DNA of 64,000 bases from Streptomyces phaeolivaceus. GTDB taxonomy: Bacteria > Actinomycetota > Actinomycetes > Streptomycetales > Streptomycetaceae. Below, one piece after another: positions 43,518 to 52,065 of the stretch. The translations under genes and the position numbers were made by a program. Below the pieces are notes generated by a model. It saw only the letters and a program-made list of their open reading frames with translations, ran no database searches and was not told the origin of the DNA. Location: contig NZ_CP045096.1 in the NCBI RefSeq assembly GCF_009184865.1, forward strand, positions 3,224,001 through 3,288,000, in the 5' to 3' direction. Within the stretch, counting starts at the first letter, position 1. Each line of letters begins with the position of its first letter.

Positions 43518-43853
43518 TTAGTAGTCGAGATTGATGCGAAGCCTAAGGAGTCTGCCGAGCGCGAACTCAACCTGAGCCATGTCCGTACCTGTCAAGTGAT
43601 CTACGGGATCCCCGCACACGAACTGTGTGTCGATGGTGCGGACCTGGTCCGCCAAGGCCGCTGTCTCCCGGCCGGCAATGACCAGACGGGGACGGAAGAT
43701 CGCTTGCTGTGCACTGGTCGACGTCGGCACGATGACCACCGTCGACCAGGTGTCGGGGGTGTCGCTGAGAACGATGCCGAACCGCTTGCCCCGTTGTTCG
43801 TGTCCCCGTTTCGCGTCGCCGAGATCAACGGGGTACACCGAGCCGCGGATCAC
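43518..43853 (-). CDS. MazF/PemK-like toxin
   Basis: 111 aa. The fold signature is present: RGSVYPVDLGDAKRGHEQRG, KRFGIVLSD, VVIVPTSTS, and DQVRTIDTQFV. MazF toxins are sequence-specific endoribonucleases that stop translation. The ATG overlaps the stop of the gene upstream (ATGA), the usual layout with an antitoxin first. Confidence 0.87.
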   Translation of the reverse strand: MIRGSVYPVDLGDAKRGHEQRGKRFGIVLSDTPDTWSTVVIVPTSTSAQQAIFRPRLVIAGRETAALADQVRTIDTQFVCGDPVDHLTGTDMAQVEFALGRLLRLRINLDY

Positions 43854-44551: not shown

Positions 44552-44681
44552 GATTCGAGCGTACAACGTTTGTTCAACATGGGGGGGATCTTCACTAGTG
44601 CCGTATCAGGCAACGTTCGCCCTGTTGTGACGCGCTGTCCGGGTGTCGGTCCGGGCGGCGCGGGCAGGTCATGCTGTTCTC

Positions 44682-45543
44682 GTGGCAGAACGAGTGCGGG
44701 TCCGGGAGATCGACGATGACGAGGGCCGGCGGCTGCTGCGGATCATCCGCAGGGGCACCGGATCGGTGGTGACCTGGCGGCGGGCCCAGATGGTGCTGCT
44801 GTCCGCCCAGGGCATGCCCGTGGTGAAGATCGCCGAGGTGTCGTTCACCAGCGACGACCGGGTCCGCGATGTGATCCACAACTTCAACACCGACGGCTTC
44901 GACTCGCTCTACCCGAAATACAAGGGCGGGCGGCCCAGGACGTTCACGCTGCCCGAGCGCCGCGAGATCAAGAAGATCGCGAAGTCCAAGCCGACCGAGC
45001 ACGACCTGCCCTTCTCGACCTGGAGTCTGTCCAAGCTGGCGGACTTCCTGGTCGCCGAGGGGGTGGTCGACGACATCAGCCACGAGGGCCTGCGCATCCT
45101 GCTCCGCGAGGAAGGCGTCTCCTTTCAACGCCTGAAGACCTGGAAGACCTCCCGCGACCCCGACTACGCGGCCAGGAAGGCCCGCGTCGAGCACCTCTAC
45201 GCGATCGCCGACGGCGAAGTCCTACCCGAGGAGGGCGAGCCCGAAGTCATCTTCTGCATGGACGAGTTCGGCCCGCTCAACCTCATGCCCCACCCCGGGA
45301 AGCAGTGGGCCGAACGCGGCGGCAAAGGCAAGGACCCCGACCGTGAGCCGCGCCGCAGACGGCGGGCCACCTACAACCGCTACGGCGGAGTAAGGCACCT
45401 GTTCGCCGCCCTGGACCTGGCCAGGGACAAGCTCTACGGCCACATCAAGCTGGTCAAGCGCCGCACCCAGTTCCTGGAGTTCTGCCGCTACCTGCGAACC
45501 CTCTACCCGCCGACGGTGCGGATCGCGATCATCTGCGACAACT
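44682..45543 (+). pseudogene. IS630-family transposase, 5' part
   Basis: Starts at GTG 44682. N-terminal HTH (VVTWRRAQMVLLSAQGMPVV, KIAEVSFTSDDRVRDV), then the DDE core with the first Asp in VIFCMDEFGPLN and the second in IICDN, where the IS110-type element cuts it. The 3' part is at 46883-47154; together they give 1,134 bases, 377 codons plus stop, in frame. Confidence 0.9.
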
Positions 45544-45560
45544 GTGAGGATCATGGTGTG

Positions 45561-45731
45561 CCGCAGGGGGCCGGAGCCTGACCCGTGCGACAACTGGCCG
45601 CAGCTGCCTTGGAGTAGAACTGTCGGCCCCGGCCTCCTGCGGTGCGTACTGCCGCCGGCCCGGTGAACGTGTCCCGATAGGGGCTTTGCTGCACAAAGCA
45701 CCGTCACAGTTCTGACCGTCCACCGGACCGG
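45561..45731 (+). ncRNA. IS110 bridge RNA with target- and donor-binding loops
   Basis: Target loop: a 14-bp stem (45561-45574 with 45629-45642, one G-U pair) encloses the left guide TGCGACAACT (45586-45595), identical to the left flank 45534-45543. It also encloses the right guide GGAGTAG (45611-45617), which pairs with CTATTCC at 46881-46887 using one wobble pair. Donor loop: an 11-bp stem (45655-45665 with 45721-45731, one mismatch) encloses ATAGGGGCTT (45677-45686), identical to the element's right end at 46871-46880. It also encloses TCACAG (45704-45709), complementary to CTGTGA at the left end. A GCTTTG/CAAAGC hairpin separates the donor guides. Transcript ends are not defined. Confidence 0.85.
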
Positions 45732-45763
45732 TGTCAGCCACCAGACCCAGTCCAAGGAGCCTC

Positions 45764-46864
45764 GTGACCGTCACCAGCATGCCCCAGCCGACGCTGCCCG
45801 CCCAGCGGGTCCCCGCCCCGGCCCAGGAGGCCGAGGACGTGATCCTGGGGGTGGACACCCACAAGGACGCCCATGTTGCTGCGGTCATCACGACCCTGGG
45901 TGCCTCGCTCGCTCAGCAGGAGTTCCCGACAACCGCCATCGGCTATCGCCAACTGCTCACCTGGGCAAGATCGTTCGGCTTCCTGCGTCGGGCCGGTGTC
46001 GAGTGCACCGGCTCCTTCGGAGCCGCGCTGACCCGAGTTCTGCGCCGGGAGGGCATCGACGTCATCGAGATCAACCAACCCGATCGTGCCACCCGGCGCA
46101 AGCGCGGCAAGACCGACGCCATCGACGCGGACGCGGCCGCTCGTGCAGTGCTGTCCGGACGGGCCACCACCGTGCCGAAGAGCGCGGACGGGCCCGTGGA
46201 GGCCATGCGGGTCCTGCGGCTGGCCAAGGAATCGGCGGTCAAGGCTCGCACGCAGGCGCTGAACCAGCTCAAGGCTGTCCTCATGTCCATCGACCCGGAC
46301 CTGCGTGAGGTGCTGTCCGGCCTGAGTAACCCTGCGCTGGTCGCCACCTGTGCGGCCCTCGACGTCGATGACCGGGGCGAGGCTGTCTTCACGATGCGCC
46401 TGCTCGCCCGCAGGGCCCAGCACCTGTCCGACGAGGTCAAAGAGCTCACCCGCCGCACCACCAGGGCCGTTCGTGTCTGTCGGCCCCAGATGCTGGACCT
46501 GGTCGGCGTCGGGCCCGACAGCGCCGCTGTCCTCCTCATCGCCGCAGGTGACAACCCCGACCGGCTCGTCGACGAAGCGTGCTTCGCCGCTCTGTGTGGT
46601 GTCAGCCCGGTCGAACAGTCCTCCGGCAAGACCCAACGCCGACGCCTGAACCGCGGAGGCCACCGCCAGGCCAACGCCGCCCTCTACCGCATCGTGCAGA
46701 CTCGCATACGCTGGGACGAACGCACCCAGTCCTACCTGCAGCGACGCACCGCCGAGGGCATGTCCAAGCGCGAGATCATCCGGTGTCTGAAGCGGTACGT
46801 CGCCCGCGAGCTCTACCGGTACATCCAGCCCCGAGTCACCAATCGGGTCCCTTCTGCGGCTTGA
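45764..46864 (+). CDS. IS110-family recombinase (transposase)
   Basis: 366 aa from a GTG with AAGGAG five bases upstream. The N-terminal DEDD/RuvC-like domain has ILGVDTHKDAHVAAV (D31) and the later KTDAIDADAAARAVL acidic pair. The C-terminal Tnp domain has VGVGPDSAAVLLIAAGD, and SPVEQSSGKTQRRR that carries the candidate catalytic Ser. These enzymes recombine donor and target DNA guided by the bridge RNA in the leader. The reading frame is intact and the RNA guides are well matched, so the element may be active. Confidence 0.93.
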   Translation: MTVTSMPQPTLPAQRVPAPAQEAEDVILGVDTHKDAHVAAVITTLGASLAQQEFPTTAIGYRQLLTWARSFGFLRRAGVECTGSFGAALTRVLRREGIDVIEINQPDRATRRKRGKTDAIDADAAARAVLSGRATTVPKSADGPVEAMRVLRLAKESAVKARTQALNQLKAVLMSIDPDLREVLSGLSNPALVATCAALDVDDRGEAVFTMRLLARRAQHLSDEVKELTRRTTRAVRVCRPQMLDLVGVGPDSAAVLLIAAGDNPDRLVDEACFAALCGVSPVEQSSGKTQRRRLNRGGHRQANAALYRIVQTRIRWDERTQSYLQRRTAEGMSKREIIRCLKRYVARELYRYIQPRVTNRVPSAA

Positions 46865-46882
46865 CGAAACATAGGGGCTTCT

Positions 46883-47154
46883 ATTCCCCGCACCTGACCA
46901 CGAAGAAGTGCCAGCGGGTCGGCACCTGGGCCGCCGCGAACAACGTCGAGATCGCCTACACCCCGACGAACTCCTCCTGGCTCAACCGCATCGAAGCCCA
47001 GTTCACCGCCCTGCGCTACTTCACCCTCGACGGCACCGACCACGCCACCCACAAAGAACAGGGCAGCATGATCCGCCGCTACATCATCTGGCGAAACCGC
47101 CACGCCGACGACCGGCACCTACGCGCCGTCGTCGACAGGGCCAACGTTGCCTGA
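46883..47154 (+). pseudogene. IS630-family transposase, 3' part
   Basis: Continues the frame of 44682-45543 as SPHLTTKKCQRVGTWAAANN and includes PTNSSWLNRIEAQFTALRYF, the conserved end of IS630 transposases with the final catalytic acidic residue (E in RIEAQ). It stops at 47154, just before the right terminal repeat. Confidence 0.9.
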
Positions 47155-47303
47155 TGCGGCACTAGCTACCTGCCGCCGCACTGAGCGTCAAAGCAGCCAT
47201 CTGAACCACTCAAGGGTCACGTCAGGCGCTTAGTCACATCGGACAGCCGGGTCAGCAGCGTTCGCACTGGCAGCAGAATTCGAACACATGATTGAATCTG
47301 AGC

Positions 47304-47507
47304 ATGCGCCCCATGCCAACCGACCTCGCCCATTGCCTCGAAGCGCGGCAGAGCGCCTACCGCCAGCTCGCCACCCGGCCGTGCACTTCGCTGCGACGCG
47401 AACTCATCCGGCTCTCGACGACGGGGCTGTTCCACCCGTACTGGGAGGGCCGCCTGACGACCGCCGCACGGTCGGCGATGTACGCGGGGAGGGGCACAGG
47501 AAGCTGA
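47304..47507 (+). CDS. Small hypothetical protein, 67 aa
   Basis: ATG at 47304. The sequence (LAHCLEARQSAYRQLATRPC, then LSTTGLFHPYWEGRLTTAAR) has natural composition. It precedes the DUF6233 gene by 35 bases in the same direction. No family recognised. Confidence 0.4.
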   Translation: MRPMPTDLAHCLEARQSAYRQLATRPCTSLRRELIRLSTTGLFHPYWEGRLTTAARSAMYAGRGTGS

Positions 47508-49252: not shown

Positions 49253-50011
49253 ATGGCATCCCACGTGAACCAAGCCCGCGCCCTGTCCTTTGATACCGTT
49301 GCCACGCAGTACGCTGCGACCCGCCCGGGCTATCCACCAGCCCTTTTTGACGCCGTAGAGGAACTCGCCGGCCGAGCGCTGGCCGACGCCGACGTGCTGG
49401 ACTGTGGGGCTGGCACCGGCATCGCCACCCGGCTGCTGAGCGAACGCGGCGCCCGCGTCGTCGCCCTGGAGCCGGGCGCCGGTATGGCCGCGGAGCTGCG
49501 CCAGGCCGAGCTGGAGGTTCCGCTGGTGCGGGGTGAAGGGAACCGACTGCCCTTCGCCGCCAGCAGGTTCGACGTGATCACCTACGCCCAGGCTTGGCAC
49601 TGGACCGACCCGGCCCGCTCCGTCCCCGAAGCACTGCGTGTGCTGCGCCCGCACGGCGTGTTGGCCCTGTGGTGGAACCAGGCCGACGTCAGCGTCCCGT
49701 GGATCGCGGCGGAGGAGGACCGGCTCGCGCCCTTCACTCGCGGTTTCCCGACGACTGTGGCCGAGCTCTTTGCTTCGTTTCCGGTCAGGGTGGCTACCCG
49801 CGAGATCACGTGGTCGCGCCGGATCACCGTCGAAGAGCACGTCCGCAACCTCGCCACCCACTCGCACTTCGTGGTCATGGACCCCGTCGAGCGGACAGAA
49901 CTCCTCGACGCGAACCGTACCGCGCTTGCGCGGCTCTTCCCCGATGGCGAGCTTGATGAGCCGTACCGGTGCGGTCTGACCGTCGTACGGCCGGCCACCA
50001 CTCATGCCTGA
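49253..50011 (+). CDS. SAM-dependent methyltransferase, element cargo
   Basis: 252 aa from the ATG at 49253. Class I signature: ADVLDCGAGTGIATRLLSER (motif I), VVALEPGAGM, and FDVITYAQAWHWTDPARSVP. The N-terminal SFDTVATQYAATRPGYPPAL is typical of methyltransferases acting on small molecules. It is the only cargo gene of the 6.8-kb element, reads opposite to the recombinases and its end overlaps the third recombinase by 10 bases. It might give resistance or modify a metabolite; the substrate is unknown. Confidence 0.85.
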   Translation: MASHVNQARALSFDTVATQYAATRPGYPPALFDAVEELAGRALADADVLDCGAGTGIATRLLSERGARVVALEPGAGMAAELRQAELEVPLVRGEGNRLPFAASRFDVITYAQAWHWTDPARSVPEALRVLRPHGVLALWWNQADVSVPWIAAEEDRLAPFTRGFPTTVAELFASFPVRVATREITWSRRITVEEHVRNLATHSHFVVMDPVERTELLDANRTALARLFPDGELDEPYRCGLTVVRPATTHA

Positions 50012-52065
50012 TCAGAGCTGGAACTCAAAGGGTCACTGAGGATGACGCGAGAGCGGTCGTGGTGGTCGGCTTGGGCGCGAAGAAGGTCGGCTCGGGCGCG
50101 CATTCGATGACCGAGTGGATCTGGAACGTTGAGGGCTTGCCCGTTCAGGGATTCTGCCTCCTTCCTCATGAGCCGGGCATGGCTATCGAGCCGTGCCACG
50201 TTCGAGCATGACGAGACGCATCGGTCCAGGCGAGGCGATTCTCTGTTGGTGACACGATTGCAGAGCGCCCGGTCGGGTTTATAGACACACATGAGCATGG
50301 CCGATGGGTTGTCATAGACCGCCAGTGATGGGTTCTGAAGAAGTGCACGAGCCTGCCGTGCGGTGACCACGGATCCGGAGAATTCAGGGGCATGCTGGGC
50401 CGCGTTGATCGCTCTCCGAGCTGCTGAACCAGATACTCCTTCACCGTTCGCCAAGTCATCGTTGAGCGCGGCGAGAGTGTCGGCAACCGACAGGGCCGTT
50501 TCAACGTCCAGGAGGTCATGGATCCCGTCCCGACTTCGGGATGCGTATCCGACGCTCATGGCAGTACGCATATGTCCGTACTGAATAGCGAGTGCGACCA
50601 GGCCGCCCGGACGCCTTGCTATATGCCAGGCCAACGTTCGACGAAAACGTGATACCCCGACAGCTCCGTACTTGTCAGCTGGGATCACCTCATGAGGGCG
50701 CCCAAAACGCTTGGCAAGGTCCGAAGCCCACATGGTGAAGTTTTCGATCCTCTTGTTCATCGTTTCTGGTATAACGCCGCCGAACAAATATCCCTCCGGG
50801 GTCAGGCGCTCAACGATGCGAATAGCCTTGACCACCGGGTCAATTGCAACCCACGGCACATCGCGTAGGACACCTTGAGGAACGTGATTCCCCTCGTCGT
50901 CGAGTGCCGTCTTGAAGACGCGGCTGTAGATTAGGTGCCGTCCTGACCTCGGATCGGGGCAACATCCCTTTTCGAGTCCCTGAACTTCGCGGGGGCGCAT
51001 TCCGGTCAGGTACGAGACCGCTACGTAAGCGGCAGTGAGCAGATGGCGCCTTAGGGCCTCAACCTCCGAGTAGTCGATGAATTCCGTCCATGGAAGTCCA
51101 TCGATTTGTCCAACTACCTCAGTGAGGACTGGAGCTGGTCCGCTGGCAGACAGAAGATGATCCCTCCAAGACCCTTCGATAACCTGACGGTGGACCTGGC
51201 GAATCGAAGCACCTGTCACGAAGGAGATGTACTTTGCCGCGAGGCCACTCCGGTTTCCGGCAGCCATACTGGGCGGCGATATTCCGGCAGTTATCAGCCC
51301 TCTTAGATATTCCTCAAGCGCAGCCCCACCCGCTGGAGTGGAAGGTGTCAGTTCACTTTGGGTCAGTATCTCTTCCCTCCTGTCGATGGCGCGAAGGATG
51401 TCGTCGGAAAAATCGTCGACCACGCGGAGGGCCCAGATGAGCAATGGGCCCATGGTTTGAGGTGTGATCGGGGCGGTGACGTTCTCGCCAGTGGACGATC
51501 CGGCTGGAAGGAAGTCATCGGCTCCTTCACTGAGCCACGGTGGTTCGCAGATCCCGATAGGCAAGGGATTCGAAGAGTCGAGAGCCCACAGTCGCGTGAT
51601 AGAGGCCAGCACCTTCTGGACGGAAACGCGTGGCTGGCCTCGGCTTCCAAGATGGAGGGCATACGCTCGCAAATTCTCAGGAGTGCAATCGCGCAGCGAG
51701 GCATGACCTGATTCCTCCAGCCACTGGCAGAAGGCCCGCCATTTCATAGCCATGGGATAGACCTGGCCTGGAGACACCGTGGTTCGCCAACGGGATGGCT
51801 TTCCTATCAGAAAGCTTGTGGGCAGCGATGTGTTGATCAGCAACCAGACCAGATAACGCAGCTCTGATTGAAACGAGACAGGGAAGCGATCCCAATGAAT
51901 CGTCTCGATTGATGTCCCTGGCCCGTGCGCCAGGCCAGCCAGATTCCAGGACCGGTCTCCGAAGCGGGGTATCGGTCCGGTGAAACCCTCGGCTATCAGA
52001 CCGGGGAGAATGGCATCAGCATCCGGAGCCGGATAGAAGTAGACCTCTTGAACGGAAACGGTCAC
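50002..52065 (-). CDS. Tyrosine recombinase, third of the trio
   Basis: 687 aa; GTG start overlaps the stop of the second recombinase (GTGA). The catalytic domain has YLTGMRPREVQGLEKG (Arg I), VSRFRRTLAWHIARR (Arg II region), and YGHMRTAMSVGYASR with His and the nucleophile Tyr. A C-terminal extension of about 150 residues has Cys and His pairs (CVYKPDRALC; LDRCVSSC) that may bind zinc. It should act with its two partners in moving the element. Confidence 0.85.
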   Translation of the reverse strand: MTVSVQEVYFYPAPDADAILPGLIAEGFTGPIPRFGDRSWNLAGLAHGPGTSIETIHWDRFPVSFQSELRYLVWLLINTSLPTSFLIGKPSRWRTTVSPGQVYPMAMKWRAFCQWLEESGHASLRDCTPENLRAYALHLGSRGQPRVSVQKVLASITRLWALDSSNPLPIGICEPPWLSEGADDFLPAGSSTGENVTAPITPQTMGPLLIWALRVVDDFSDDILRAIDRREEILTQSELTPSTPAGGAALEEYLRGLITAGISPPSMAAGNRSGLAAKYISFVTGASIRQVHRQVIEGSWRDHLLSASGPAPVLTEVVGQIDGLPWTEFIDYSEVEALRRHLLTAAYVAVSYLTGMRPREVQGLEKGCCPDPRSGRHLIYSRVFKTALDDEGNHVPQGVLRDVPWVAIDPVVKAIRIVERLTPEGYLFGGVIPETMNKRIENFTMWASDLAKRFGRPHEVIPADKYGAVGVSRFRRTLAWHIARRPGGLVALAIQYGHMRTAMSVGYASRSRDGIHDLLDVETALSVADTLAALNDDLANGEGVSGSAARRAINAAQHAPEFSGSVVTARQARALLQNPSLAVYDNPSAMLMCVYKPDRALCNRVTNRESPRLDRCVSSCSNVARLDSHARLMRKEAESLNGQALNVPDPLGHRMRARADLLRAQADHHDRSRVILSDPLSSSSDQA

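Follow-up and report, generated by a model that had tools for sequence, protein, structure and literature searches.

How does an insertion sequence (IS) come to lie inside the transposase gene of another, and does the leader in front of its own recombinase gene specify that site? We addressed this question in a stretch of 64,000 nucleotides from Streptomyces phaeolivaceus (GCF_009184865.1, contig NZ_CP045096.1, positions 3,224,001 to 3,288,000; hereafter the window, in which all coordinates are counted), where an IS110-group element (45542..46880, + strand) interrupts an IS630 transposase gene. We are highly confident that this element moves by RNA-guided recombination, a reading carried, as far as sequences can carry it, by the anatomy of the element, the complementarity of guides to targets and of handshake bases to their partners, a covarying leader fold, target genes free of the insert and repeated retargeting in relatives.

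By its protein domains the element belongs to the IS110 group. Its recombinase (366 amino acids, 45764..46864, +), preceded by a ribosome-binding-like AAGGAG read from the letters (45754..45759, +), matches the DEDD RuvC-like and Transposase_20 domains (PF01548, 84.2 bits; PF02371, 61.7 bits) and the RNA-guided IS110 transposase family NF033542 (162 bits, above the cut-off of 140), in agreement with an earlier model-made interpretation (the sequence-only reading) that had classed the element as IS110-type. Candidates for the DEDD residues (D31, E80, D118 and D121) and for the serine (S287) were placed by eye on an alignment with ISCro4 (9t56); the roles of such residues were described for IS621 (PMC11208158; here and below, statements on published systems follow the accessible parts of the cited sources). 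ISCro4 and IS621 were the sole PDB sequences retrieved by phmmer at E 0.001, both at E about 1e-11. The proposed remoteness from IS621 thus holds by sequence, but the family takes its name from a Streptomyces coelicolor element, IS110 (title cited in PMC11187229), which tempers the idea of a far lineage. Membership of the TIGR-Tas endonucleases was not supported (NF052498, 28.2 bits against a curated cut-off of 100), and an RNA in the right end, the trait of the IS1111 group, was not found, the modelled RNA lying upstream of the recombinase gene; there, at 45556-45737, a covarying two-loop structure predicts the left-end RNA of the IS110 group. A search of a phage collection returned a single partial relative (58% covered, 32.6% identity).

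The ends of the element were placed by comparison with intact IS630 genes and by conservation in relatives. The left target, TGCGACAA plus core CT (45534..45543, +), was read from the letters and recurs in uninterrupted relatives, such as L127, as TGCGACAA-CT-TCTCC. The first core copy (CT, 45542-45543, +) opens the element, the right end ATAGGGGCTT (46871..46880, +) closes it, and the second core copy (CT, 46881-46882, +) lies directly 3' of it, forming with the right target ATTCC the segment 46881..46887 (+). CT is the core at both junctions, as had been claimed; of the earlier bounds, 45542..46887, the start stands, but the end takes in the core copy and five right-target bases, the true end being 46880. 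A first register for the right junction (end ATAGGGGCT, flank TCTATTCC) was overruled by intact IS630, IS5 and IS3 genes, which move the end to ATAGGGGCTT or ATAGGGGCAT, with the core next to it. Intact IS630 genes read GACAA-CT, then TCTCC or ACTCC, in ten of 11 loci (L127–L130 and L132–L137; L131 differs), with neither insert nor duplication at the target in these ten; intact IS5 genes (L138, L143) read CGA-CA-AGCT, intact IS3 genes (L140, L142) TTCGA-CA-ACGCC, and intact tryptophan-type IS630 genes (L139, L141) GACAA-CT and GACAA-TT. These genes, which are homologues of the targets and not identical chromosomal sites, fix the register and indicate, at the sequence level, a scarless insertion with no duplication beyond the core.

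The interrupted gene comprises a 5' part (44643..45541, +), broken after the codons I-C-D-(N), and a 3' part (46883..47154, +), recognised by its DDE_3 match and by comparison with L127. The 5' piece scores 112.8 bits with NF033545 (cut-off 100), and the 3' piece matches DDE_3 at E 6.9e-5, below the Pfam cut-off, and shares 97% identity with L127, an uninterrupted IS630. Both terminal inverted repeats of the IS630, a 31-nt pair at 44595..44625 and 47135..47165 (+), are retained and 94% complementary (inverted repeats were searched at 14 nt or longer), in keeping with the claimed insertion into an IS630 transposase gene; since they are retained, the IS630 carrying the IS110 insert might be mobilised in trans as a nested pair. 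A further IS630 in the same genome (L163) has an intact site, TGCGACAACTACGCC, that fits the left guide at 8/8 and is a candidate for an unoccupied target.

Does the leader then carry guides for this site? The predicted bridge RNA (45556..45737, from the covariance model and covariation; all its parts are on the + strand) comprises a target-binding stem-loop (45557..45646, helices 1–3) and a donor-binding stem-loop (45653..45733, helices 4–6), whose positions were counted by hand from the alignment. In the first loop, the left target guide (LTG) TGCGACAACT (45586..45595) is identical to the left flank (45534-45543), and the right target guide (RTG), GGAGT followed by the core complement AG (45611..45617), pairs with CTATTCC at 46881-46887 through a single G:T wobble. 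In the second, the left donor guide (LDG) ATAGGGGCTT (45677..45686) is identical to the right end of the element (46871-46880), and the right donor guide (RDG) TCACAG (45704..45709) pairs with the left end CTGTGA (45542-45547). All four guides had been proposed at these positions and were recovered as described. To them we add two handshake guides, AA in the target loop (45618..45619), which pairs with donor TT at 46879-46880, and TT in the donor loop (45710..45711), which pairs with target A6-A7, together with the promoter-like pair described below. When the leader (45544-45763) was shuffled 20,000 times with its dinucleotides preserved, six of the products contained the left flank exactly over 10 bases, one contained the 10-base right end in full, and in none did both reach 9/10.

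The two stems around two loops that had been proposed earlier are also borne out by comparison, as the helices covary across 24 sequences, the window included. In these 24 leaders the two-loop fold has standard pairs in 95.8% of cells, both sides having changed in 22 of 49 pairs, against 34.7–43.7% when the partner is slid by one to three columns, a control biased in favour of the structure, which was derived from the same alignment. The segment 45542-45770 folds better than all 200 of its shuffles (z -2.80). The covariance-model search that had been proposed recovered the leader structure at 45556-45737 with 185 bits, the window being one of the 24 training sequences, and gave 44 matches up to E 0.1 on 53 loci, including loci of Novosphingobium, Aureimonas and Acidimicrobiia and, weakly, of Gordonibacter. 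The lack of a conserved two-loop structure among homologues, which the sequence-only reading had named as an outcome that would contradict it, was not observed: the fold is conserved in the homologues checked. Rfam, searched over 45000-47500, returned no family, its two weak miRNA matches both falling below the cut-offs.

If the guides are functional, they should differ between relatives as the targets differ. Relatives were gathered from 28 contig loci, from the best matches in 392 genomes of the genus and 297 of the family, from plasmids (10 of at least 20 matches) and from fetched regions; a locus was kept if its match began within six bases of the element start, and exact duplicates were dropped, leaving 59 loci, the window included. 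These contain near copies and are not 59 independent events, two pairs with common targets (L056 and L106; L061 and L105) are possibly not independent, and the shuffle tests on loci take no account of kinship. Partial matches of any kind occurred in 299 of the 392 genus genomes, a figure that does not measure prevalence. L111 has no readable LTG, which leaves 58 loci for LTG counts, and the right junction was located in 39 of the 59, to which the counts of RTG, base 9 and promoter refer.

In the alignment of leaders, variation falls in the target loop's two guide stretches, most other positions being conserved; 18 distinct LTGs occur in the 58 loci. Counting wobbles, the eight non-core bases of the LTG pair with the locus's own flank at 8/8 in 42 loci, at 7/8 in 15 and at 2/8 in one, so that the comparison of guides and flanks in homologues, also proposed earlier, gave 7–8/8 in 57 of the 58. 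The mean pairing is 7.64; with flanks shuffled 2,000 times it is 5.88 and never exceeds 6.31. For the five bases of the RTG, the mean is 4.33, against 2.87 in shuffles (highest 3.51), with all five bases paired in 18 of 39 loci. The donor side covaries in Rhodococcus L123, where the left end CTGAGA is accompanied by the RDG TCTCAG. At a locus of a Catellatospora relative (L012, 3670-3720), the guide TAACGCAACT equals the flank; the open frame upstream is that of an IS6 transposase (NF033587, 205.1 bits), with the break beyond the matched domain. Identical recombinases stand at different loci of one genome in two cases (L003, L004 and L005; L097 and L098), which by their sequences suggests recent movement.

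The sequence-only reading had named relatives with the same guides at unrelated targets as an outcome that would contradict it. Two loci with guides the same or nearly the same as those of the window lie outside recognised transposases, and their sites fit their left guides: in L005 the LTG pairs at 8/8 (one wobble) and the RTG at 5/5, and in L002 the LTG pairs at 8/8 and the RTG at 4/5. That candidate contradiction was rejected. The L005 copy, whose recombinase is identical to those of two others in the same genome (Streptomyces sp. NBC_00154), sits at the 3' end of an open reading frame (ORF) with an NmrA-like match and, as judged from both guides matching its site, would be a natural off-target.

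The handshake bases were followed in the same way. In the target loop, all 39 loci have handshake bases that pair with bases 6-7 of the donor (AA/TT in 12, AT/AT in 26 and, by wobble, AT/GT in one). In the donor loop, from whose count L058 was left out (n = 58), both handshake bases pair with target bases 6-7 in 52 loci (TT/AA in 33 and TC/GA in 19; shuffle mean 40.3, highest 47), the six exceptions being L047, L061, L075, L102, L105 and L113. These pairings, as read in the relatives, support the handshake model of PMC11208158.

These comparisons bear on a very different account, in which the leader is nothing more than a folded 5' untranslated region and its apparent guides are explained by a duplication of the target DNA or by the selection of matching strings. 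The leader does lie just upstream of the recombinase start codon and has a ribosome-binding-like site, as such a region would. Duplication of the target is, however, disfavoured as the origin of the match, since the intact target genes contain no extra copy; the guides vary with the targets although neighbouring bases stay fixed, the handshake bases fit the other partner and exact 10-base matches are rare among shuffles. We consider this account very improbable and retain RNA-guided recombination.

Several observations nevertheless weigh against RNA-guided movement, or against the firmness with which it can be stated. The RTG pairs at fewer than five of five bases in 21 of the 39 loci, and the LDG differs from the right end at one or more positions in 27 of 39. 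The left flank of L102 is unrelated to its guide (LTG 2/8), for which a rearranged left end would be our guess, and the left-end variants of L102 and L112 are not accompanied by a matching change in the RDG. Handshake changes largely follow clades, and therefore represent few independent events; the AA form of the target-loop handshake is restricted to the closest relatives of the window element, which implies about one change. The window element is present in one copy in its own genome, with no second copy as a sign of movement. In a sister clade (L077–L093, 55–61% protein identity), the model gave 16 hits in 15 of 17 loci, none with a guide–flank match of 8/10 or better. The guide letters of this clade are rather uniform (TGAGATCTAT-like, with AGTCACGGGC-like RTGs in many) and the flanks are unmatched in the register used; its ends or its targets may follow a different arrangement. 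It was excluded from all counts, three members serving as outgroup of the tree. Finally, transcription, RNA binding, circle formation and strand chemistry are proposed by analogy with IS621, our own evidence being that of sequence.

What do these elements target? Insertions lie within transposase genes in 51 of the 59 loci (IS630, 33; IS5, 11; IS3, four; DDE_Tnp_4 type, two; IS256, one), the eight loci without an assigned transposase being L002, L005, L052, L056, L075, L102, L106 and L110. Classes were assigned by searching the flanks with reference transposases (some annotated and intact, some taken from the loci) and with Pfam and NCBIfam; L010 and L061 are their own references, so that their classes rest on Pfam, and L041 and L105 were placed from the right flank only. 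The DDE_Tnp_4 type might, we assume, be classed under IS5 in IS naming. Beyond the 59, two loci found by the model gave matches to IS256 (L074, E 2.4e-8) and IS3 (L018, E 7.1e-32), both below the cut-off. Where the best left alignment reaches the junction, it ends at one residue per family, mostly within fixed motifs (residue numbers of the references: IS630 C-type, 260; IS630 W-type, 87; IS5, 271 or 270; IS3, 227). With the insertion marked by ^, these motifs are C/W-D^N in IS630, R-Y^D-K in IS5, C-C^D-G in IS256 and, in IS3, C-F^D-N-A in three of four loci and S-Y^D-N-A in L059. The targeted aspartate of IS630 and IS256 is one that we take to be catalytic.

The tree has 52 rows, several short or truncated relatives being omitted. 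Over the 40 rows with a transposase label there are at least nine changes of target label (at least seven if IS630 and IS256 subtypes are merged), which means that transposases were hit anew after guide changes; by parsimony, tryptophan-type IS630 targeting has two origins inside the cysteine-type clade. We also considered that the target might be the most conserved stretch of IS630, a proposal borne out only in part: in 30 mixed genes its rank is 31 among 886 windows, in 21 C-type genes 117 among 1,066 and in nine F-type genes 593 among 993.

Transposases may be frequent targets through abundance and survivorship and not through specialisation, numerous, conserved and dispensable genes multiplying any guide that happens to match them. 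The sample itself leans this way, since the loci were retrieved with a single IS630-targeting element as query and from the best matches only; in none of the three IS630 gene sets is the target the top-ranking stretch for conservation, and guide-matching sites outside recognised transposases were also entered (L005, L002). Against this explanation stand the concentration of 51 of 59 loci in several transposase types, mostly at fixed motifs, and the repeated label changes on the tree. We would give it slightly less than an even chance; the two views are compatible, and survivorship may be a route to specialisation.

A second departure concerns the target core. At the right junction, base 9 of the target is T in 17 loci, A in 11, C in 10 and G in one, A being supported by intact IS5 and IS3 genes and C and G by right junctions alone; the left junction has core CT in 39/39. 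The RTG carries a partner for target base 9 in every one of the 39 loci (twice by G:U), and in the 22 loci where base 9 is not T the left core is invariably CT and the RTG holds the complement of base 9. The LTG, which has CT in 36 of the 39 loci, does not track this base. Even L067, with 94% DNA identity to the window element, has core CC at its right junction. For IS621, the literature describes a T9 that hardly varies and a top-strand cut falling between bases 9 and 10 (PMC11208158); the preferred core is CT (PMC11208158, PMC11208160), and cores were reprogrammed only to AT, GT and TT, guides for non-CT cores having been filtered from one natural survey (PMC11208160). The simplest reading of our sequences would be a crossover to the left of base 9, with an effective core of a single C.

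It is nearly as probable as its converse that base 9 is exchanged as in IS621 and that repair or inheritance of the mismatch invariably favours the bottom strand, leaving CT at the left and the target base at the right. The cut of IS621 between 9 and 10 (PMC11208158) accords with this, and bottom-strand inheritance would give the same outcome. Yet that outcome would have to recur in all 22 non-T loci, in each of which the RTG is the complement of the target base; after an IS621-type exchange the RTG would face a non-complementary donor T wherever the target base is A or G (12 loci), although an RTG G could still wobble with donor T in the 10 C-target loci.

A shift of the crossover by one base forms part of a broader picture that we put forward tentatively, with distinctly less than even confidence: a largely actinobacterial clade of RNA-guided transposon hunters, whose guides were repeatedly rewritten to conserved, often catalytic, codons in five transposase types, offering multi-copy, harmless and mobile targets and disabling competitors, and whose crossover falls one base earlier than in IS621, the RTG being free to set base 9 and the donor keeping CT.

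How the RNA would be expressed is suggested by the ends. A -35-like TTGACG (46861..46866, +) overlaps the recombinase stop codon, and a -10-like GAGGAT (45546..45551, +) in the left end would stand 18 nt from it across the circle junction. TTGAC is present in all 39 right ends; once the ends are joined, a hexamer of the type GAGGAT or GAGACT follows from the left end after 17–18 nt. Such hexamers can act as promoters in Streptomyces. A promoter rebuilt at the circle junction, a trait of the IS110 group, is predicted from the letters. In the proposed mechanism, the joined ends of the excised circle would form TTGACG-N18-GAGGAT and drive the bridge RNA; LTG and RTG would pair with the two strands of the IS630 gene at the codons Cys-Asp-Asn-(Tyr), and the donor guides with the ends of the element as joined in the circle; once strands are exchanged, the handshake guides would pair with bases 6-7 of the other DNA, and the DEDD/serine recombinase would insert the element with no target duplication beyond the core.

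Elsewhere in the window, a PemK/MazF-like toxin of a toxin–antitoxin pair (43518-43853, -; PF02452, 56.8 bits) adjoins a 238-amino-acid ORF with no Pfam match, and a 687-amino-acid ORF (50002-52065, -) has the look of a tyrosine recombinase on inspection, yet Pfam returned nothing for it at E 0.001.

Natural RNA-programmed insertion, for which the sequence-only reading had taken this locus as a clear example, is supported by guides that track their own targets across relatives, but not as a novelty, the phenomenon having been published, including for catalytic codons of transposases (PMC11187229). The outline of the mechanism is already known for the IS110 group; what the clade adds is the repeated retargeting onto transposases, the partner-linked handshake changes and a target core unlike that of IS621. 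Our literature search, with most subscription papers and bioRxiv outside its reach, returned neither a clade-wide series over several transposase families nor a report of a free position 9. The clade offers a natural experiment in guide rewriting: its 59 loci allow a comparison of guides and targets as well as of handshake bases and donor ends, and the main target genes are also known in uninterrupted form. It lends natural support to handshake pairing; the suggested target core, less restricted than that of IS621, would widen the sites addressable by bridge recombinases. It also poses a testable question, namely what leads RNA-guided elements to conserved codons in the transposases of their rivals.

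Among known systems, IS621 (PMC11208160, PMC11208158) shares with the window element the DEDD and serine recombinase, the left-end bridge RNA with two loops, the four guides LTG, RTG, LDG and RDG, the handshake guides, the circle-junction promoter and the CT donor core. It differs in its distant sequence, in targeting REP (repetitive extragenic palindromic) elements (PMC11208160), whereas transposase codons are mostly hit here, and in its almost invariant T9 (PMC11208158), which in the relatives of the window element is replaced by a variable, RTG-matched base. The ISCro4 recombinase (PDB 9t56) is matched at E about 1e-11, with low overall similarity. Closest in its choice of target is ISEc21, described with seekRNA, an IS110-group element whose guide also addresses codons around a catalytic aspartate of another IS's transposase, in its case the second Asp of IS3 transposases, and whose relative ISMch6 is a natural redirection (PMC11187229); ISEc21 is directed to certain IS3 members, in contrast to the IS630, IS5, IS3, IS256 and DDE_Tnp_4 targets found here within one largely actinobacterial clade. 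IS4321/IS5075 and the attC group of IS1111 are likewise IS110/IS1111-family elements specialised on other mobile DNA, but they are directed to transposon ends or attC sites and not to transposase codons (titles cited in PMC11187229).

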